From contig JAAETH010000595.1 of NCBI GenBank assembly GCA_024228575.1, forward strand, positions 1-64,000: a DNA stretch of 64,000 nucleotides. Direction: 5' to 3'. This DNA comes from Actinomycetes bacterium (GTDB lineage Bacteria > Actinomycetota > Acidimicrobiia > Acidimicrobiales > Poriferisodalaceae). A program made the translations under genes and the position numbers. Positions 1,789-19,266 of this stretch are shown one piece after another. The notes under the pieces are model-generated. The model saw only the letters and a program-made list of their open reading frames with translations, was not told where the DNA came from and did no database searches. Position 1 is the stretch's first letter. The number at the start of each line of letters is the position of its first letter.

Positions 1789-4311
1789 TCAGCCGTAGAC
1801 GACGAGGCGGCGTTGCTGATCGACACCGACGAGGTACCCGTCGTGGATCAGGATCTCCTGGCTGGATTCAAAGACCTCTTCGTCGACCAGCTTCCAGAGC
1901 TCAGCGCCGGTCGCGATGTCGTAGGCGGCGAGCCCACCGTTGGACGTTCCATTGCCGTAGACGACACCTTCACCGATGGCGATGGCGCCCGAGATGAGGG
2001 GGCCATCCCACCGGGTCGACCACACCAGATCGCCGGTTGCAATATCGACTGCACGCATGTCGAGCGAGTGCGTGAAGACGAATCCGTCGGCGTGGGCGAG
2101 CCGCAGATCGGAATCGGGGTCCGACCACAACTGTTCACCGTTTGCCAGATCGAAGGCACGCAGTCTCGAATCGCGAAGCACGAGAACACCATCGACGGCA
2201 AGAGCCTCGTTCGGCGAGATGTCTCCGGTCAGTTCGGCTGACCACCGCTCCGCGCCGGTGGCGCTCTCGAGCACGAAGACGCCACCGTCCACGACCACGG
2301 TCACCGCGCCGGCATCCACGATGACGGGCAGCGCCGACTGTTCCGCAGTGTTTGGCCAGTGCCACAGGACTTCACCAGAGTCGAGATCGATCGCAAAGAG
2401 GTCGTTCGTCCAGGTTCCGTCATCGAATCCGGAGTAGACGACATAGAGCCGGCCGTCGACCACGGTGGGAGCCTGAGGGGAGATCTCGATTGCCTCCGAC
2501 GGAGGAGTGAGCCGGTACAACTCCTCGGTCCCCGTCGCACGATCGACAGCGACCACGTCGAACGCGTCGACGTAGAACAAACCGTCCTCGCTTATGGCTG
2601 GGGTTCGAGAACCAAAGCTGGTCTCGCGGACCCAGATGTCTTCGCCAGTGGCAAGGTCGACGGCCCTTACCGTTTCATCCTGGAACGAGGCGTACATCAC
2701 CCCGTCGACGGCAACGGGGTCGCCACCGACCAGATCGGAAGATCGCCAGATGACAGAAGGCAGAGTCGTGGGCCCCGGGGACCGCCAATTGTCGGTGCGG
2801 CCCGGGTCGGCGTGAGCCCCGGTGACCCAAGAATCCGAACGGCCTGGCGCCACCGGCTCCTCGACAACATCGACCTCTGAGGTTGGGGCGATCGTGTCGG
2901 TAACCCCAACATCGCCAACGGTCTCGTCGGGTTGAACCGAGGTGGTGGCCGAAACAGCCGCTTCGGTGGTGGGCGGTGCCGCAGCCGTTGTGGACGAGGC
3001 GGACCCGTCGCCTCCACCCGTCGCCAGAACGATTCCGACGACGATGATGGCGACCACGGCAAGGCCCGCCCCGATGAGGGCAAACGGGGGGCCCTTCGGA
3101 TCGCCCGCTGCGGGCTGCTCGAATGGAGTCGAGGCAGACTTGACCCGTGCCTCGCTTGACGGCGATGGCACCGACACGGTGGCCGTTTCGGATCCGGGGC
3201 TGGCCTCTGCCGCTACCGGTGCGACCGCCTCCACATCCCTGGCCGGGCGTAACGAATCGAGACCCAGGAGAGCAGCACCAAGAGCGACCGAGTTCTTCGA
3301 GTGCGCATCGGCGGTGATCGGAAGACCGGTCTCAGAACCGACGACCTCAGCAACGAGAGGAACCCTGCTCGAACCGCCCACCAACAACACAGCCGACAGA
3401 TCATCGAGAGTCACCCCCGCACTATCGACGGCCTGGCGGACAGAGATCAGCGTGTCACGAATCGAAGGACGAACAAGATCCTCGAACTCGCTCCTGGTCA
3501 GACGCACCTGAAGACTCACACCGCCCAGCTCGACCAACAAGTGGGTCGACGTGTCCGAACTCAGAGCCTCCTTGGCGCTGCGCGCCTCGTCTCGAAGCCT
3601 CGCCATGGCAGCCAACGTCGCCGGATCGCTCGGATCGAGAGCGGCCAGATCGACACCCGCAGACCGCAAGACAAAGCTGACCACAACCTCATCGAGATCG
3701 ATCCCACCAAGACGTTCGATACCCGTCGCCTCGCCGACCACCTCAAACCCGCCGACCCCGCGCCGCAGAACCACCGAATCGAACGTGCCGCCACCAAAGT
3801 CGTAGACAACGACCATGTCGCCCACCTCGATACGAGCCTGATGGGCATACCACGACGCTGCCGCGGTCGGCTCGTCGAAATAGGCTGCGTCGGCACGCCC
3901 CGCGCGCTTGCCGACATCTCGAAGCAGCTCTTGTTTGTAGGGACCCCAGTTCGCCGGATATGTGATGGCCACCGCAGCAGGAGGTTCACCGCGCTCGCTC
4001 GTCGCCTTGTCGATGATGTTCTTGGCCAAATAGGCCATCAGCTGCTGACTCTGGTGCGGTTGCCCATCGAGCAGGATTGGAGTGGTATCACCAAACCTGC
4101 GCTTGAACTCGCGACCGACCGACGTGGGGTGGGTCACCGCCCTGCGCTGAGCAGCCTGCCCGATCACGGGTTCGTCACCAGCAGAGATGGCAATCACCGA
4201 AGGAATGACCACCGACGCGTGCTCGAGCGGCATCATCTCGGCCCGACCATCAAGAGTCGCTATCGCCGCGGCCGAGTACGTAGTACCCAAATCGATACCA
4301 AGCGCGTACAC
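1789..4311 (-). CDS. Hsp70-like ATPase fused to a membrane segment and PQQ-type beta-propeller
   Basis: 840 residues, GTG start. The N-terminal 355 residues form a complete Hsp70/actin-fold ATPase: phosphate-1 motif GIDLGTTYSA (5-14), phosphate-2 motif DFGGGTFD (171-178) and adenosine motif VGGSSRVP (311-318). There is no Hsp70 peptide-binding domain. After a Ser/Pro linker comes one membrane helix (about 409-431), then a Ser/Thr/Pro linker, and from about 505 to the end seven or so PQQ-like blades marked by repeats such as AVDLATGEDIW, AIDLDSGEVLW and AYDIATGAELW. The predicted topology puts the ATPase in the cytoplasm and the propeller outside. It is 66 bases downstream of a Thr-rich membrane protein gene and probably in the same transcript. 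A sensory or envelope quality-control role is inference. Confidence 0.85.
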   Translation of the reverse strand: MYALGIDLGTTYSAAAIATLDGRAEMMPLEHASVVIPSVIAISAGDEPVIGQAAQRRAVTHPTSVGREFKRRFGDTTPILLDGQPHQSQQLMAYLAKNIIDKATSERGEPPAAVAITYPANWGPYKQELLRDVGKRAGRADAAYFDEPTAAASWYAHQARIEVGDMVVVYDFGGGTFDSVVLRRGVGGFEVVGEATGIERLGGIDLDEVVVSFVLRSAGVDLAALDPSDPATLAAMARLRDEARSAKEALSSDTSTHLLVELGGVSLQVRLTRSEFEDLVRPSIRDTLISVRQAVDSAGVTLDDLSAVLLVGGSSRVPLVAEVVGSETGLPITADAHSKNSVALGAALLGLDSLRPARDVEAVAPVAAEASPGSETATVSVPSPSSEARVKSASTPFEQPAAGDPKGPPFALIGAGLAVVAIIVVGIVLATGGGDGSASSTTAAAPPTTEAAVSATTSVQPDETVGDVGVTDTIAPTSEVDVVEEPVAPGRSDSWVTGAHADPGRTDNWRSPGPTTLPSVIWRSSDLVGGDPVAVDGVMYASFQDETVRAVDLATGEDIWVRETSFGSRTPAISEDGLFYVDAFDVVAVDRATGTEELYRLTPPSEAIEISPQAPTVVDGRLYVVYSGFDDGTWTNDLFAIDLDSGEVLWHWPNTAEQSALPVIVDAGAVTVVVDGGVFVLESATGAERWSAELTGDISPNEALAVDGVLVLRDSRLRAFDLANGEQLWSDPDSDLRLAHADGFVFTHSLDMRAVDIATGDLVWSTRWDGPLISGAIAIGEGVVYGNGTSNGGLAAYDIATGAELWKLVDEEVFESSQEILIHDGYLVGVDQQRRLVVYG

Positions 4312-4377: not shown

Positions 4378-4875
4378 TCAGCCTTCAGGCTCGAACACCA
4401 CCACAGGCACCGTGCCCAGAGTCAGAGGCGGATCGGGCGAAACCACCTCCTCGACCACCACCGTGCCAAGTGTCATATCGGGCTCGACCCGGCTCGACGG
4501 AGTAGTCCCAATCGTGGCAACCACCTCGGTGGTAGAAGCTGCGACAGTGATCGGAGGCACCGTCGTCGACGCGACGCTTGTCGTGACCGTCGTCGACGCA
4601 GTCGCTTCACCGGTTGACGGTGTCGGCACAGAGGTGACCAACGCGGGTGGCTGCGTCGCTGTTGTGGCCACGGTCGTCGACGACTCGACAGGCTGATCGA
4701 TAGCCGGGGCCACAGGATCCGGCGCATTACTCTGCGCCGACTCAGCGACGGCAAAAGCCAGCAAGGAAGCCAACAAGACGGCACCCGCCACAGCGACAAC
4801 CAGCCTGGTGCCGACCAGTCCCGATGACTCGCGCCGCCTGTCACCGCGGGTTGAATTGTGATCCGAAACGTTCAT
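4378..4875 (-). CDS. Single-pass membrane protein with Ser/Thr/Pro/Val-rich outer region
   Basis: 165 residues. A short basic N-terminus is followed by one membrane helix (about residues 23-45, LVVAVAGAVLLASLLAFAVA). The remaining 120 residues are low complexity, rich in Thr, Ser, Val and Pro, and probably extended outside the cell. There is no recognised domain. It lies directly upstream of the Hsp70-PQQ fusion on the same strand, which suggests the two products work together. Similar Thr-rich linkers occur in the partner. It starts at ATG 4875-4873, divergent from the M3 peptidase, so 4876-5015 must hold both promoters. Confidence 0.65.
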   Translation of the reverse strand: MNVSDHNSTRGDRRRESSGLVGTRLVVAVAGAVLLASLLAFAVAESAQSNAPDPVAPAIDQPVESSTTVATTATQPPALVTSVPTPSTGEATASTTVTTSVASTTVPPITVAASTTEVVATIGTTPSSRVEPDMTLGTVVVEEVVSPDPPLTLGTVPVVVFEPEG

Positions 4876-12121: not shown

Positions 12122-12793
12122 TCAGCGGCGCAGCCGCAGCAGCGCCAGAGCGAACACGGAGATTCCAAAGTTCGCCGAGATCAGCATCATCCAGGGCACC
12201 GAATTGGAATCGCGGGTTCCGACCTGTCCGACCAGCGGGCTCATGACCACATCGGTCCCCCGCGTCGAACCCGACATCTCAGGCGCGGACATCAGGACGT
12301 CGAGGCCATCACCCGCGACTGCCGAGGAGCTTTCGTCGAGAGAGACCTCGGCCGCCGTCGTCGCCGGCGATTGCCCGTCGCCCAACGATTCCTCAGGCTG
12401 GGTTGTTGTCTGCACGGCGCCGGTATCGACGGTCGTGGTCACCTGCGTACCTTCGCCGGACGTCGTCGGTGTCGAGTCGGCGGAGGGAGCTGCCGTCGAC
12501 ACCGGCGGCGTGCCGGCGATCCCGACTTCTCCACCGGTGCCCGCGCTGGTGGGAGTCGGTCCCTCTAGGACCGAGACGAGTTCACCGGGCGCAGTGAGCA
12601 CCACACCGTCATCAACTGTTTCTGTCGTCGAGGAGGATTCTTGGATCTCGGAGGAGCCGTCTTGGGCTCCGGCATCGGATACGCCGACAACCGCTGAGTC
12701 CCGGGGGCCGACCAAGGCGACCGCGGCAACGGTCGCCAGCAGTCCGGCCAGCAGGGCGAGAAGCCGTGGATGTCGCACCGTGGTCTCGATCAC
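12122..12793 (-). CDS. Exported Thr/Ser-rich protein with N- and C-terminal membrane segments
   Basis: 223 residues, no recognised domain. A signal-like hydrophobic stretch (about 10-30, LLALLAGLLATVAAVALVG) is followed by a 150-residue low-complexity region rich in Thr, Ser, Gly and acidic residues. The C-terminus has a second membrane helix (WMMLISANFGISVFALALL) with a basic tail (RLRR). The bulk is probably outside the cell, held by one or both ends. It is immediately upstream of htrA on the same strand, with a five-base gap, so a function with or as a client of that protease is plausible. Confidence 0.6.
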   Translation of the reverse strand: MIETTVRHPRLLALLAGLLATVAAVALVGPRDSAVVGVSDAGAQDGSSEIQESSSTTETVDDGVVLTAPGELVSVLEGPTPTSAGTGGEVGIAGTPPVSTAAPSADSTPTTSGEGTQVTTTVDTGAVQTTTQPEESLGDGQSPATTAAEVSLDESSSAVAGDGLDVLMSAPEMSGSTRGTDVVMSPLVGQVGTRDSNSVPWMMLISANFGISVFALALLRLRR

Positions 12794-15705: not shown

Positions 15706-18700
15706 TCAGGTGCTGCGATTCATCGCCGGCATGGACCGTCCGGCGGCTGTCGGGTCGGGCCCATTCGTAGCGAGCGCTAGGTGGAAAAGATTCTCCCACC
15801 CGGTCAGCGCTACCCCTAGAGCATCCATGTGACTATCTGCTTCCGCCCTGGCCTCGGACGCGTCGGCGTGACCGAGAGTCTCGTATGCGATAGCACGGCC
15901 GAGCCGCACCACCGCCTGGGACAGTCGTGACTCGGTAGCGTCGATGATGACAACCGCCTCGTCGAACGCTTCGACAACCCGATCGGTTGCCCCATCACGA
16001 GCGAACGCCAGGGCCCTGGCCAGGTTTGCCGATCGATGGTCGAGATACGTGGCGCGCGTCGAAGCCCGCACGGTATCGGCGCTCTCGATGGCTTCTCGAG
16101 TGTCGCCATTACAGACAGCTGCCAACGCGTGAATACACTCGTGGTATGGGCCGCGCGGGCCCGCGTCGTCGAGCACCCGGAGAATCGCACTGGCCTCGCC
16201 GGCCCGACCGAGCTGCAGTTCGACGACAGCCCTTGTGACCATCCGATCGATGCTGCCCAAGATGATGGGACCCTCCGGGTCATCGTCGACGAGGTCGAGC
16301 TCTTCCTTGGATCGCTCGGCCAGGCCGAGCTGAGCCAGAGCGGCACCGGCAACCATGTGGCAGAAGTCGACTTGTGGTGCCCCTGGTTCGGACTCCGCCA
16401 GTTTGAGCGCCTCGTCGATGGACCTGCGGCTCTCGTCGAGATTGCCCAGGGCTGCGTGGGCGCGCGTCAGGGTCGCCAGCCCCTGGACCTCCCCAAAGAC
16501 CGAATCGCTGTCGCTAAGAACAGCGACCGCCTCACGGGCTGAATCGACGGCCTTGCGACATTCGCCGCGCCACAGTGCGATGGTCGCCAGCAACAACCGC
16601 ATCATCGACTCGCCGAAACGATCACCTCGTTTGATGGCCTCCTCGAGCACCATCGTTGCGGTCGCCTCGGCTTCGGAGCTCTCGCCACCGTGGAACATGA
16701 GAAAGGCCCAGAGTCCAAGAGCCCAGCCAAGCCCACCGGCATCGTCGTTTTGGGTGAACAGCTCTATTGCCCGATCGATGCGTTGATTCGCCTCGTCGAT
16801 TCGACCACTCTCGAATGAGAGCCAGGCCAGATTCTGTTGACACCAAGCTTCGCCGGTCGAGTCGCCGAGTGCCATGAACACGTGGAGCGCTTCGGAGAAG
16901 TCGTTTTCAGCCTGGGCTCTGTCGCCGAGAGCCATATGCGCCATACCGCGCAGCCGCAGGGCCTCGGCCACTTCAGCGGGATCGTCGAGTTCTCGCCACA
17001 GTTCGATGGCTTCGTCGAGCAGGAACTCGCCCTCGTGAGGATTGCCGGCCAGGGTCGCTGCCTCGCCCAACAGTGTCGTGGACGCGGCCGCGGTGCGACC
17101 ATCACCATGCAGTTCGGCCACCCGCCTGGCCTCGAGAGCGTCGGCCTCTGCTCCGGCGAGTTCGCGCAGTCCAACCCTCGCTCGAGCGCGTCCAACAGCC
17201 AGCTCTGCCCTGCGCGGGTCATCGTCATCGGTGAGGCCGAGGCCCTGGGCGTACATACGACCGGCGATGAGAAACGCGTCTCGAGCGCTCGCGCGCGAGC
17301 CAGCCTCCAGAAGGTACGAGATCGCTGTGTCGACGATGTCGTCGGGCAAACCCGGAACACCCGACATCTCGACATGAAGGTAGGCGGCGGCGCTGAAATG
17401 CCTGGCGATGGCCGAAACCTCGCCAGCGCGGTGGGTGTCATCGCGATGTGACTCGAGCCACTCGGCGATGTCGAGGTGGCTGAGTGCCCTGGACGTCTTG
17501 GTGAGAGTCGAATACGCGAGGTCGCGCACCACGTCGGATCGAAAGACCCAACGATCCGCCTCGATTGCGAACACGTCCTTGTCGACCAGCCTTCCGAAGG
17601 TGTGTTCGGGCTTCTCACTACCGGCTCGCGTTGCCAACATCAGTAGTGCGTACACGGGGCCTGATCGGCCCACGACCGCCGCGTCGTCGACCATCGAGCG
17701 CTCGTCTGGATCGAGGGCGTCGAGGCGAGCGGCCACCAGCCCTCGCAACGTATCGGGGAGTTGCTTGAGACGGTGTGTGAGGTCTCGCCTGGTGGCACCC
17801 TCAGCGCCCCGCAGCAACGCCGTCAGTTCCTCGAGGAAGAACGGATTTCCTCCACTGCGTTCGTAGAGGGCATCGACCAACGCCCCGTCGACATCGCCGC
17901 CCAACAGAGATCGGACCAACTCGTCCGACGAGCTCTTCGAAAGGGGTCCGAGGTTGATGACGGTGGTGTTGTGCCGACCTGGGGGCACCACCCACCGATC
18001 CTCGTCGACCATCCATCGGGCCGTGGTCAAGACGATGAACCGCGAGTGGGTGAGGGCCACCAGAAGCCCTTCGAGCAACTCGAGGAGGCGCTTGTCGGCC
18101 CAGTGGATGTCGCCGAGGGTGACGAGCACCGGGCGCCGTTCGGCGACGGACGAGAAGATCGTCGATAGGCCAACCCTCAGCTCCTCGCGCAGTCTGGACG
18201 GTTCGAACGTGTCGATCGGTGTCTCGTATCCGAGGATGAACATCGCCGCGTTGATGGCCTGGTCGAGACCCGGGTCGTTGTCGGAAACTCCGAGAAGCTG
18301 GCGAAGCACCATCGTGAGACGCTGCCTCGCAGCCTGCAGCGAATCGCCGGCATCGATCTCGAATGCCGCGGCGAGCGCCTCACCGATCGGCCTGTATGGA
18401 TTGGGCTCTCCGTATGGCAACACCCGCCCCTCGAGAACCAGGGCATCGTGACGCTCTTCGCAGTCCGAGGCGATCTCCTCTGCGAGCCTGGTCTTGCCCA
18501 GACCGGTCTCGCCCGCGATCAGCAACAGGTGCGCTCGACCGCGCTCGACCGAAGCGTCGATCGCAGCCGCGAGGTGGCTCAGCTCGGGCGAACGACCGAC
18601 CAGCGGAGCATTGACGGCCTTGCGGAGACGACCGGGCGGTCTCAGTTCACCGACGGCAACACAAGCTTCGATCTCCTCGTCGCGCCCCCTGACCTTGAAA

Positions 18701-19266
18701 CTGCCGCGAGGGGCATAGTCGATCGCGTCGAGGGTGGCATCGCGGGTGGTCGGGCCGACCAGCACCTCTCCGGGTTCAGCCATCGACTCGAGGCGTGAGG
18801 CGAGATTCACCGTGTCGCCCATTGCGGTGTAGTCGCCACCGGCACTGATGGCACCAACCAATACCTCGCCCGTGTTGATGCCGACCCGCATCTTGACTTC
18901 GACCCCCACCTCGGAGGTCACATCGACCAGGCTGCGCTGCATACGAAGGGCAGCCCTGACAGCACGTTCGGCATCGTCCTCGTGTGCCTTTGGAGCGCCG
19001 AAGAGTGCAACTACCGCGTCTCCGACGATCTTGTCGACCGTGCCGCCAAAGGCTGTGACATCGGCGACCAGACGTCTGAAGCAGCGGTCGATCAAGTGTT
19101 TGACGAACTCGGGATCTTCACCTTCGGACAGTGCTGTGAAGCCGACCAGATCGGCGAACAGAACCGTGACAACACGGCGCTCCTCGGAGAGCACGAGCAG
19201 GTGTCCACACGAGGGGCAGAAACGCGCGCCATCTGGCACGGGTGACCCGCAGGACGGACAAGGCAT
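15706..19266 (-). CDS. Zinc-ribbon adenylate/guanylate cyclase with AAA ATPase and TPR regulator domains
   Basis: 1186 residues. It opens with a zinc ribbon (CPSC and CPSC within residues 3-20). A class III nucleotide cyclase domain follows (about 30-205), with both metal aspartates (VLFADLVGFTAL and VGDAVVALFG) and the late Asn/Arg site GDTVNLASRLE. Then comes a STAND/AAA ATPase (Walker A GETGLGKT near 250) and, from about 620, a long TPR-like helical array. This matches the large actinobacterial cyclase-ATPase signalling proteins. It should make cAMP or cGMP under control of the ATPase/TPR part; the ligand is unknown. A Crp-type regulator lies at 58718 in the same window. Confidence 0.88.
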   Translation of the reverse strand: MPCPSCGSPVPDGARFCPSCGHLLVLSEERRVVTVLFADLVGFTALSEGEDPEFVKHLIDRCFRRLVADVTAFGGTVDKIVGDAVVALFGAPKAHEDDAERAVRAALRMQRSLVDVTSEVGVEVKMRVGINTGEVLVGAISAGGDYTAMGDTVNLASRLESMAEPGEVLVGPTTRDATLDAIDYAPRGSFKVRGRDEEIEACVAVGELRPPGRLRKAVNAPLVGRSPELSHLAAAIDASVERGRAHLLLIAGETGLGKTRLAEEIASDCEERHDALVLEGRVLPYGEPNPYRPIGEALAAAFEIDAGDSLQAARQRLTMVLRQLLGVSDNDPGLDQAINAAMFILGYETPIDTFEPSRLREELRVGLSTIFSSVAERRPVLVTLGDIHWADKRLLELLEGLLVALTHSRFIVLTTARWMVDEDRWVVPPGRHNTTVINLGPLSKSSSDELVRSLLGGDVDGALVDALYERSGGNPFFLEELTALLRGAEGATRRDLTHRLKQLPDTLRGLVAARLDALDPDERSMVDDAAVVGRSGPVYALLMLATRAGSEKPEHTFGRLVDKDVFAIEADRWVFRSDVVRDLAYSTLTKTSRALSHLDIAEWLESHRDDTHRAGEVSAIARHFSAAAYLHVEMSGVPGLPDDIVDTAISYLLEAGSRASARDAFLIAGRMYAQGLGLTDDDDPRRAELAVGRARARVGLRELAGAEADALEARRVAELHGDGRTAAASTTLLGEAATLAGNPHEGEFLLDEAIELWRELDDPAEVAEALRLRGMAHMALGDRAQAENDFSEALHVFMALGDSTGEAWCQQNLAWLSFESGRIDEANQRIDRAIELFTQNDDAGGLGWALGLWAFLMFHGGESSEAEATATMVLEEAIKRGDRFGESMMRLLLATIALWRGECRKAVDSAREAVAVLSDSDSVFGEVQGLATLTRAHAALGNLDESRRSIDEALKLAESEPGAPQVDFCHMVAGAALAQLGLAERSKEELDLVDDDPEGPIILGSIDRMVTRAVVELQLGRAGEASAILRVLDDAGPRGPYHECIHALAAVCNGDTREAIESADTVRASTRATYLDHRSANLARALAFARDGATDRVVEAFDEAVVIIDATESRLSQAVVRLGRAIAYETLGHADASEARAEADSHMDALGVALTGWENLFHLALATNGPDPTAAGRSMPAMNRST

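Follow-up and report, generated by a model that had tools for sequence, protein, structure and literature searches.

The nucleotide-binding domains (NBDs) of Hsp70 proteins are known as chaperone motors. The mycobacterial iniBAC genes are induced by isoniazid and ethambutol. Several described systems stand close to the gene reported here. IniA of M. smegmatis is a membrane-fission dynamin that cuts membranes in vitro (PMC6715688), and in the same species a dnaK-like gene adjoins iniR, as reported in the 2017 IniR paper (PMC5760070). MSMEG_0692/Rv0312, a Pro/Thr-rich, ATP-binding protein with one membrane helix, was identified together with FhaA, a protein of the envelope (PMC11898655). Kinases with PQQ, WD and NHL repeats have been described (PMC1262709). 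Finally, HSP70s lacking a substrate-binding domain accompany GTPases in the GAP1-N2 conflict systems, according to a portion of Kaur et al. 2020 (PMC7159879).

Here we describe a gene whose predicted product joins an Hsp70-type NBD to an outer propeller through a single membrane helix, and the family of membrane Hsp70 proteins to which it belongs. The gene lies in the window, i.e., the whole stretch of 64,000 nucleotides that was analysed.

Domain plan of the window protein and its conservation

The features of the gene and of its upstream neighbour, with the evidence for each, are as follows.

1789..4311, minus strand: protein of Hsp70-type NBD, membrane helix and PQQ-propeller, 840 aa, GTG start (ORF, Pfam, ortholog, tree)
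3262..4311, minus strand: Hsp70 NBD, residues 1-350, predicted cytoplasmic (Pfam, alignments, PDB sequence match, Foldseek)
3082..3261, minus strand: disordered juxtamembrane segment, residues 351-410 (pLDDT mostly <40; codon comparison)
3016..3081, minus strand: single membrane helix, residues ~411-432 (hydropathy; helix 413-430 in the AlphaFold model)
2758..3015, minus strand: Thr/Ser/Pro-rich spacer, residues 433-518 (sequence; disordered in the model)
1792..2757, minus strand: eight-bladed PQQ/BamB-type propeller, residues 519-840 (Pfam, motif count, model strands)
4378..4875, minus strand: small Thr/Val-rich protein with one N-terminal membrane helix and the C-terminal motif TLGTVVVEEV...PPLTLGTVPVVVFEPEG (ORF; upstream of the window gene)

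The Pfam HSP70 profile matches the window protein (E 4e-50) only up to profile position 378 of 599, where the ATPase domain ends, and a match to PQQ_2 (E 7e-30) has its best stretch at residues 639-836. Hydropathy gives one strong hydrophobic helix, at residues 411-429 (KD 2.97), with more positive charge on its N-terminal than on its C-terminal side; the predicted topology is N-in, C-out, with the propeller outside and the spacer presumably spanning the wall. In an AlphaFold model built from a 17-sequence alignment, the NBD mostly has pLDDT above 85-90, residues 358-517 are disordered with the sole exception of the helix 413-430, and the propeller (residues 520-840) is mostly at pLDDT 70-90. 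The NBD model matches Hsp70 NBDs in Foldseek, and its sequence matches DnaK 2v7y (E 3e-49). The natural solved chain nearest to the propeller is 7eq5, the propeller of a membrane-associated protein kinase (E 3e-10). The propeller carries seven AxDxxTGxxxW motifs and no cysteine, and manual grouping of the model strands yields eight blades, namely the seven motif blades and a last one closed by the N-terminal strand 520-524. An earlier note on this DNA had proposed one membrane helix and an outer propeller of about seven PQQ-type blades: the helix and the propeller agree with our data, the outer location as a prediction, and the blade count is raised to eight. We regard the anatomy described here as nearly certain.

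The Hsp70 phosphate, connect and adenosine motifs and the catalytic positions are all intact in alignments of the window NBD; the earlier note had stated this for three nucleotide motifs. The equivalents of DnaK D8, E171, D194, T199 and D201 and the glycine loops are retained in 51-52 of the 52 family members collected in this study, and that of K70 in 51 of 52. A different pattern is seen at R151 and R167. Both are arginine in each of the 20 DnaKs compared, their equivalents in the window protein are Q127 and A143, and in the family arginine is found at the first position in 8 of 52 members and is replaced at the second in most. An interdomain linker of the DVLLL type is absent from the window protein when aligned with the DnaK of the same genome, and the end of the Pfam match at 378/599 leaves no substrate-binding domain (SBD) or lid, so that the peptide-binding domain is missing, as claimed before. 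In addition, the strand that bears the J-domain face in DnaK is altered (FDSVVLRRGVGGFEV in the window protein versus FDVSILEIGDGVFEV in DnaK). The retention of the catalytic residues together with the loss of R151/R167 and of the linker suggests that the nucleotide machinery has been conserved and the chaperone coupling has not.

A full-length ortholog is encoded in a sister genome of the same genus (G001), with 60% identity over residues 1-831, where the G001 contig ends, and the HtrA-like, SbcD-like, SbcC-like and Thr-rich genes surround both copies. Identity between the orthologs is 71% in the NBD, 57% in the propeller and 28.8% in the juxtamembrane segment. Values of dN and dS (NG86; dS near saturation) are 0.20 and 3.0 for the NBD and 0.34 and 1.7 for the propeller, and in both domains the third codon position is the most changed and the second the least. 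Because a full-length ortholog exists in conserved surroundings and dN is well below dS in both domains, the gene is no chance fusion; the same observations rule out an assembly error, the other doubt raised in the earlier note, and support a conserved architecture. As judged from this substitution pattern, the window gene is under selection.

The Thr-rich gene at 4378..4875 probably belongs to the same operon. Its ortholog (L040:5736-6263, 52% identity) occupies the same position in the sister genome, so the membrane neighbour described previously is real; its supposed dedication to the Hsp70 protein is weakened by a homolog with the same C-terminal motif (PPVTIGTVPVSVFEG) at L222:1375-1950 (plus strand) in genome G009, where an Hsp70 search found DnaK only. 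The other genes flanking the window gene encode an M3 peptidase and an SbcC-like ATPase (Pfam) and an SbcD-like phosphoesterase and an HtrA-like protease (by eye). A secreted Ser/Thr-rich protein is encoded behind the HtrA-like gene (12122-12793, minus strand), and positions 15706-19266 (minus strand) encode a protein of 1186 aa that starts, by eye, with a zinc ribbon followed by an adenylate-cyclase-like domain. At the contig edge (1-731, minus strand), a secreted repeat protein is spread over two overlapping frames, reflecting a frameshift or an assembly error. Its portion at 255-731 was considered as a partner, a similar gene being found after the PASTA paralog, and was rejected, the repeats having 150 matches in the genome.

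Family members, their outer domains and their dynamin neighbours

The earlier note had treated the protein as a single different machine. Our data indicate that the window gene is one member of a membrane Hsp70 family of many architectures. The family profile is an HMM made from 16 NBDs, and membership was assigned at more than 260 bits together with a place in the non-DnaK clade. Members score 400-571 bits (the window protein 506), a related sister branch 266-306, and DnaKs and other Hsp70s at most 243. A profile scan of genome contigs returned mostly DnaK, and six family or sister-branch loci (L056-L060 and L068) come from it. The tree places the DnaKs in a single clade (support 100/100); within the other clade, the window protein is paired with its G001 ortholog. 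Plasmid-borne members were rejected, since the plasmid matches were DnaK or generic 'Hsp70 family' proteins with identity of at most 35%.

Four paralogs with an NBD and a helix are present in the genome of the window, the window gene and C310, C509 and C483, and their ectodomains differ. Across the family, the NBD is followed by propellers of the PQQ, NHL/YVTN and TolB types or by PASTA, RCC1, FGE-sulfatase, GH99, BON or Septum_form domains; some members have an ectodomain without a Pfam match, or no recognisable ectodomain. The PQQ propeller is carried by the window protein, its G001 ortholog and, independently, L183, which has no clear membrane helix after its NBD; the two members with FHA domains (L049 and L050) lack a membrane helix altogether. 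The distance from the NBD end to the helix is ~60 residues in the window protein and ~44-223 across members, with little sequence conservation, and such variation in length favours a tether over a lever. Three tandem members at L045:4509-12265 (minus strand), two of them with FGE-sulfatase-type ectodomains, adjoin a large repeat protein. At L268:7801-9864 (plus strand), directly after two dynamins, an Hsp70-like NBD is joined to WD40-like repeats (by eye) with no membrane helix, a cytoplasmic version of the propeller protein.

Twelve members share an ectodomain of ~110 residues, here named HVHF, in which three His and two Cys are invariant and which possibly binds metal. Its model is a confident beta-sandwich (pLDDT 88). 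HVHF is not represented in Pfam, and a known fold was rejected, since PDB gave no confident match but only weak, Ig/FnIII-like ones. Two of its copies, and the cluster of the window's genome in which one of them lies, are as follows; ten more copies are found in the alignment.

L194:705-1058, minus strand: HVHF copy (alignment)
L053:8162-8566, plus strand: HVHF copy (alignment)
L053:6617-13998: C310 cluster in the window's genome, Hsp70 / STAND-LuxR regulator / two dynamins, resembling IniR-iniAC

The core copy of the family has two dynamin-like GTPases of the IniA/IniC type around it, and IniB-like and IniR-like genes are frequent there as well. Of the two dynamins, the IniA-type one is similar in sequence to IniA of M. 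smegmatis (E 2e-109). The neighbours of core copies include STAND/LuxR regulators resembling IniR and proteins with an IniB N-terminal domain (NF038175), the latter with E down to 6e-9, below the curated cut-off. A dynamin is found within the fetched flanks of 30 of the 52 members, many of the contigs being short, and at 0 of 20 DnaK loci (262 kb) of the same class. Among the 247 genomes of the class, 20 encode a protein of the family or its sister branch that scores above 260 bits and 19 an IniC-type dynamin, and all 19 belong to the 20 genomes with a family Hsp70; in the twentieth (G080), the other dynamin of the pair adjoins the Hsp70 gene on a 4-kb contig. The hypergeometric probability of this co-occurrence is 1.7e-27, a value that ignores relatedness; the 19 genomes represent 19 genera. 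In a sample of the phylum, 20 genomes have the dynamins, and in 19 of these a non-DnaK Hsp70 is encoded no more than ~5 kb from them. Overall, the association of the family with dynamins is highly probable.

No dynamin, IniB-like or IniR-like gene is present in the 1.8 kb downstream of the window gene, up to the contig edge, or in the 7.7 kb upstream of it, and the only IniC-type dynamin of the genome is at C310, next to the HVHF-type paralog. The window gene is thus a satellite paralog with a new outer domain, outside the dynamin locus, and its own dynamin link runs only via C310 and the family.

Several genomes of the phylum with the dynamin pair gave no strong family match at first. A relaxed search of these genomes found divergent non-DnaK Hsp70-like proteins next to dynamins, often next to an IniR-like gene, and in one such genome the IniA closely resembles that of M. 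smegmatis (596 residues aligned, 1045 bits). Degenerate one-helix Hsp70-like proteins, sometimes in two copies, are found by IniR and IniA/IniC dynamins at L260, L261, L263, L264, L265 and L270. From position and domain plan, we infer that these mycobacteria-type loci represent the family of Rv0312 and of the M. smegmatis dnaK-like gene. Most of the mycobacteria-type NBDs are without residues equivalent to K70, E171 and T199, a loss that suggests that these proteins are probably poor or dead ATPases. Since key ATPase residues have been lost in them, a nucleotide switch cannot be a requirement for every family member.

Proposed function and alternative explanations

The window protein may be a single-pass membrane receptor or tether in which an Hsp70-type NBD takes the place of a kinase as the cytoplasmic module. 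Its gene would be a satellite of the dynamin-linked Hsp70 family of iniBAC-like envelope-stress loci, one that arose by duplication and took on a different ectodomain. The propeller would bind a wall or envelope component outside, and ligand binding would cluster or position the protein via its flexible tethers. The NBD, open or closed depending on ATP or ADP, would dock or gate cytoplasmic partners, the likeliest being the two dynamins of the C310 cluster in its own genome; protein folding would play no part. A sensor role of the propeller is supported by its closest natural solved relative, 7eq5, being the propeller of a membrane-associated kinase. The earlier note had suggested that the ATPase could drive or read the state of the propeller, and the second half of that idea is the best option left. 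Taken as a whole, this reading, a receptor or tether with an NBD nucleotide switch for cytoplasmic partners, has in our opinion an even chance of being correct.

Its main rival is an envelope scaffold that ties a cytoplasmic complex to the wall, with the NBD as a protein adaptor and a nucleotide cycle of little or no importance. Such a role would explain why mycobacteria-type members keep the plan yet are without the K70, E171 and T199 equivalents, and it fits both the finding of MSMEG_0692/Rv0312 with FhaA (PMC11898655) and the FHA domains of two family members. However, outside the mycobacteria-type group, all or almost all of the 52 members that were collected retain the catalytic residues unchanged, the window protein included, which implies selection for nucleotide handling. 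We consider the scaffold unlikely as an account of the window protein.

The homology of the NBD to Hsp70 would also agree with a membrane-tethered chaperone for nascent or exported envelope proteins. This is quite improbable, given a protein with no SBD, DVLLL-type linker or R151/R167 pair and with an altered J-domain-face strand; DnaJ or GrpE genes were not noticed in the flanks examined by eye.

By analogy with the PQQ-activated transmembrane kinases, the protein might be a PQQ-responsive sensor, and the closest natural solved relative of its propeller is indeed a PQQ-annotated kinase ectodomain (7eq5/7dxn). Yet the blade motif is a signature of the fold that is also found in BamB. BamB has the same motif and makes no use of PQQ. 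Moreover, the window protein falls outside the PQQ-dependent dehydrogenases, with a quinoprotein dehydrogenase score of 58 bits against a cut-off of 480 (NCBIfam) and a propeller without cysteine, hence without the cysteine pair of a vicinal disulfide. PQQ was rejected as the ligand, nothing beyond the fold speaking for it, and a PQQ sensor is scarcely to be expected.

The other half of the idea in the earlier note, a machine that hydrolyses ATP in the cell so as to move or open the propeller outside, draws on the presence of an intact ATPase and a propeller on one chain. It is very improbable, as a disordered segment (~60 residues here, ~44-223 in others) and a single helix transmit force poorly. 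This segment is unconstrained in length and sequence, with the 28.8% identity between orthologs given above, and the ectodomain is freely swapped in the family.

Finally, a component of a GTPase-centred conflict or suicide system, which in the portion of PMC7159879 mentioned above can include an HSP70 without peptide-binding domain, would match the pairing of the family with GTPases and STAND ATPases and its patchy distribution, but is highly unlikely, as the partners are IniA/IniC dynamins and IniB/IniR-like proteins, not GAP1-N2, tubulin, GrpE or FNIII-DnaJ, as GAP1-N2 GTPase, GrpE and FNIII-DnaJ are absent from the flanks of the window gene, and as iniBAC responds to envelope damage (PMC5760070).

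Returning to the receptor or tether with a nucleotide switch, we tentatively extend it to a class of bacterial transmembrane receptors. In these the Hsp70 fold would be the cytoplasmic module, ectodomains would be exchanged as in receptor kinases, and dynamin-like fission proteins would be controlled upon envelope damage; mycobacterial iniBAC would be a member of the class with an overlooked Hsp70-like component. A membrane-anchored Hsp70 domain that has been uncoupled from substrate binding and carries exchangeable outer domains would amount to a receptor design, and the dynamin association would provide a first candidate for the regulation of bacterial dynamins and for the sensing of envelope damage by iniBAC.

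Comparison with known systems

This receptor-like Hsp70 family, in which ectodomains are exchanged, appears to be undescribed, as does its connection with dynamins. A literature search, with most subscription papers outside it, brought up neither the family nor an Hsp70-dynamin link; the NBD and the propeller are known as components, and earlier work mentions Hsp70s near GTPases or iniR that are truncated or dnaK-like.

The window protein has the NBD fold, nucleotide motifs and catalytic residues in common with DnaK and other Hsp70s (PF00012). In contrast to DnaK, it is without SBD-beta/alpha, linker and R151/R167, is anchored in the membrane and falls into a separate clade. With BamB and other PQQ_2 proteins it shares the eight-bladed fold, but it scores 79.7 bits against the BamB equivalog cut-off of 285.2, has no lipoprotein signal and carries its propeller after an internal membrane helix.

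In its overall plan, the protein is similar to the transmembrane Ser/Thr kinases with PQQ, NHL and PASTA ectodomains (AfsK, PknB and PknD types), which likewise combine a cytoplasmic nucleotide-using module, one helix and a swappable outer sensor. The likeness is closest to the kinases 7eq5/7dxn, in which a PQQ-type propeller, the nearest natural solved relative of that in the window protein, follows one membrane helix. Unlike them, the window protein has an Hsp70 NBD and no kinase match in Pfam, and phosphotransfer is not expected.

The HSP70 of the GAP1-N2 system also has an NBD without peptide-binding domain and GTPases near it. Its GTPases and neighbours are different, and the same portion of PMC7159879 reports no membrane ectodomain for it.

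The mycobacteria-type loci, which probably correspond to the M. smegmatis dnaK-like gene and MSMEG_0692/Rv0312, resemble the window gene in encoding one helix and an Hsp70-like N-terminal half, and are located by iniR/iniBAC or ~30 kb away; they differ in having a low-complexity tail in place of the propeller and degenerate ATPase motifs. The iniBAC/IniR system as described names an Hsp70 member only in one sentence, on M. smegmatis, and the window gene lies outside such a locus, whereas the core copy of the family is surrounded, as in that system, by IniA/IniC-type dynamins and by IniB-like and IniR-like genes.
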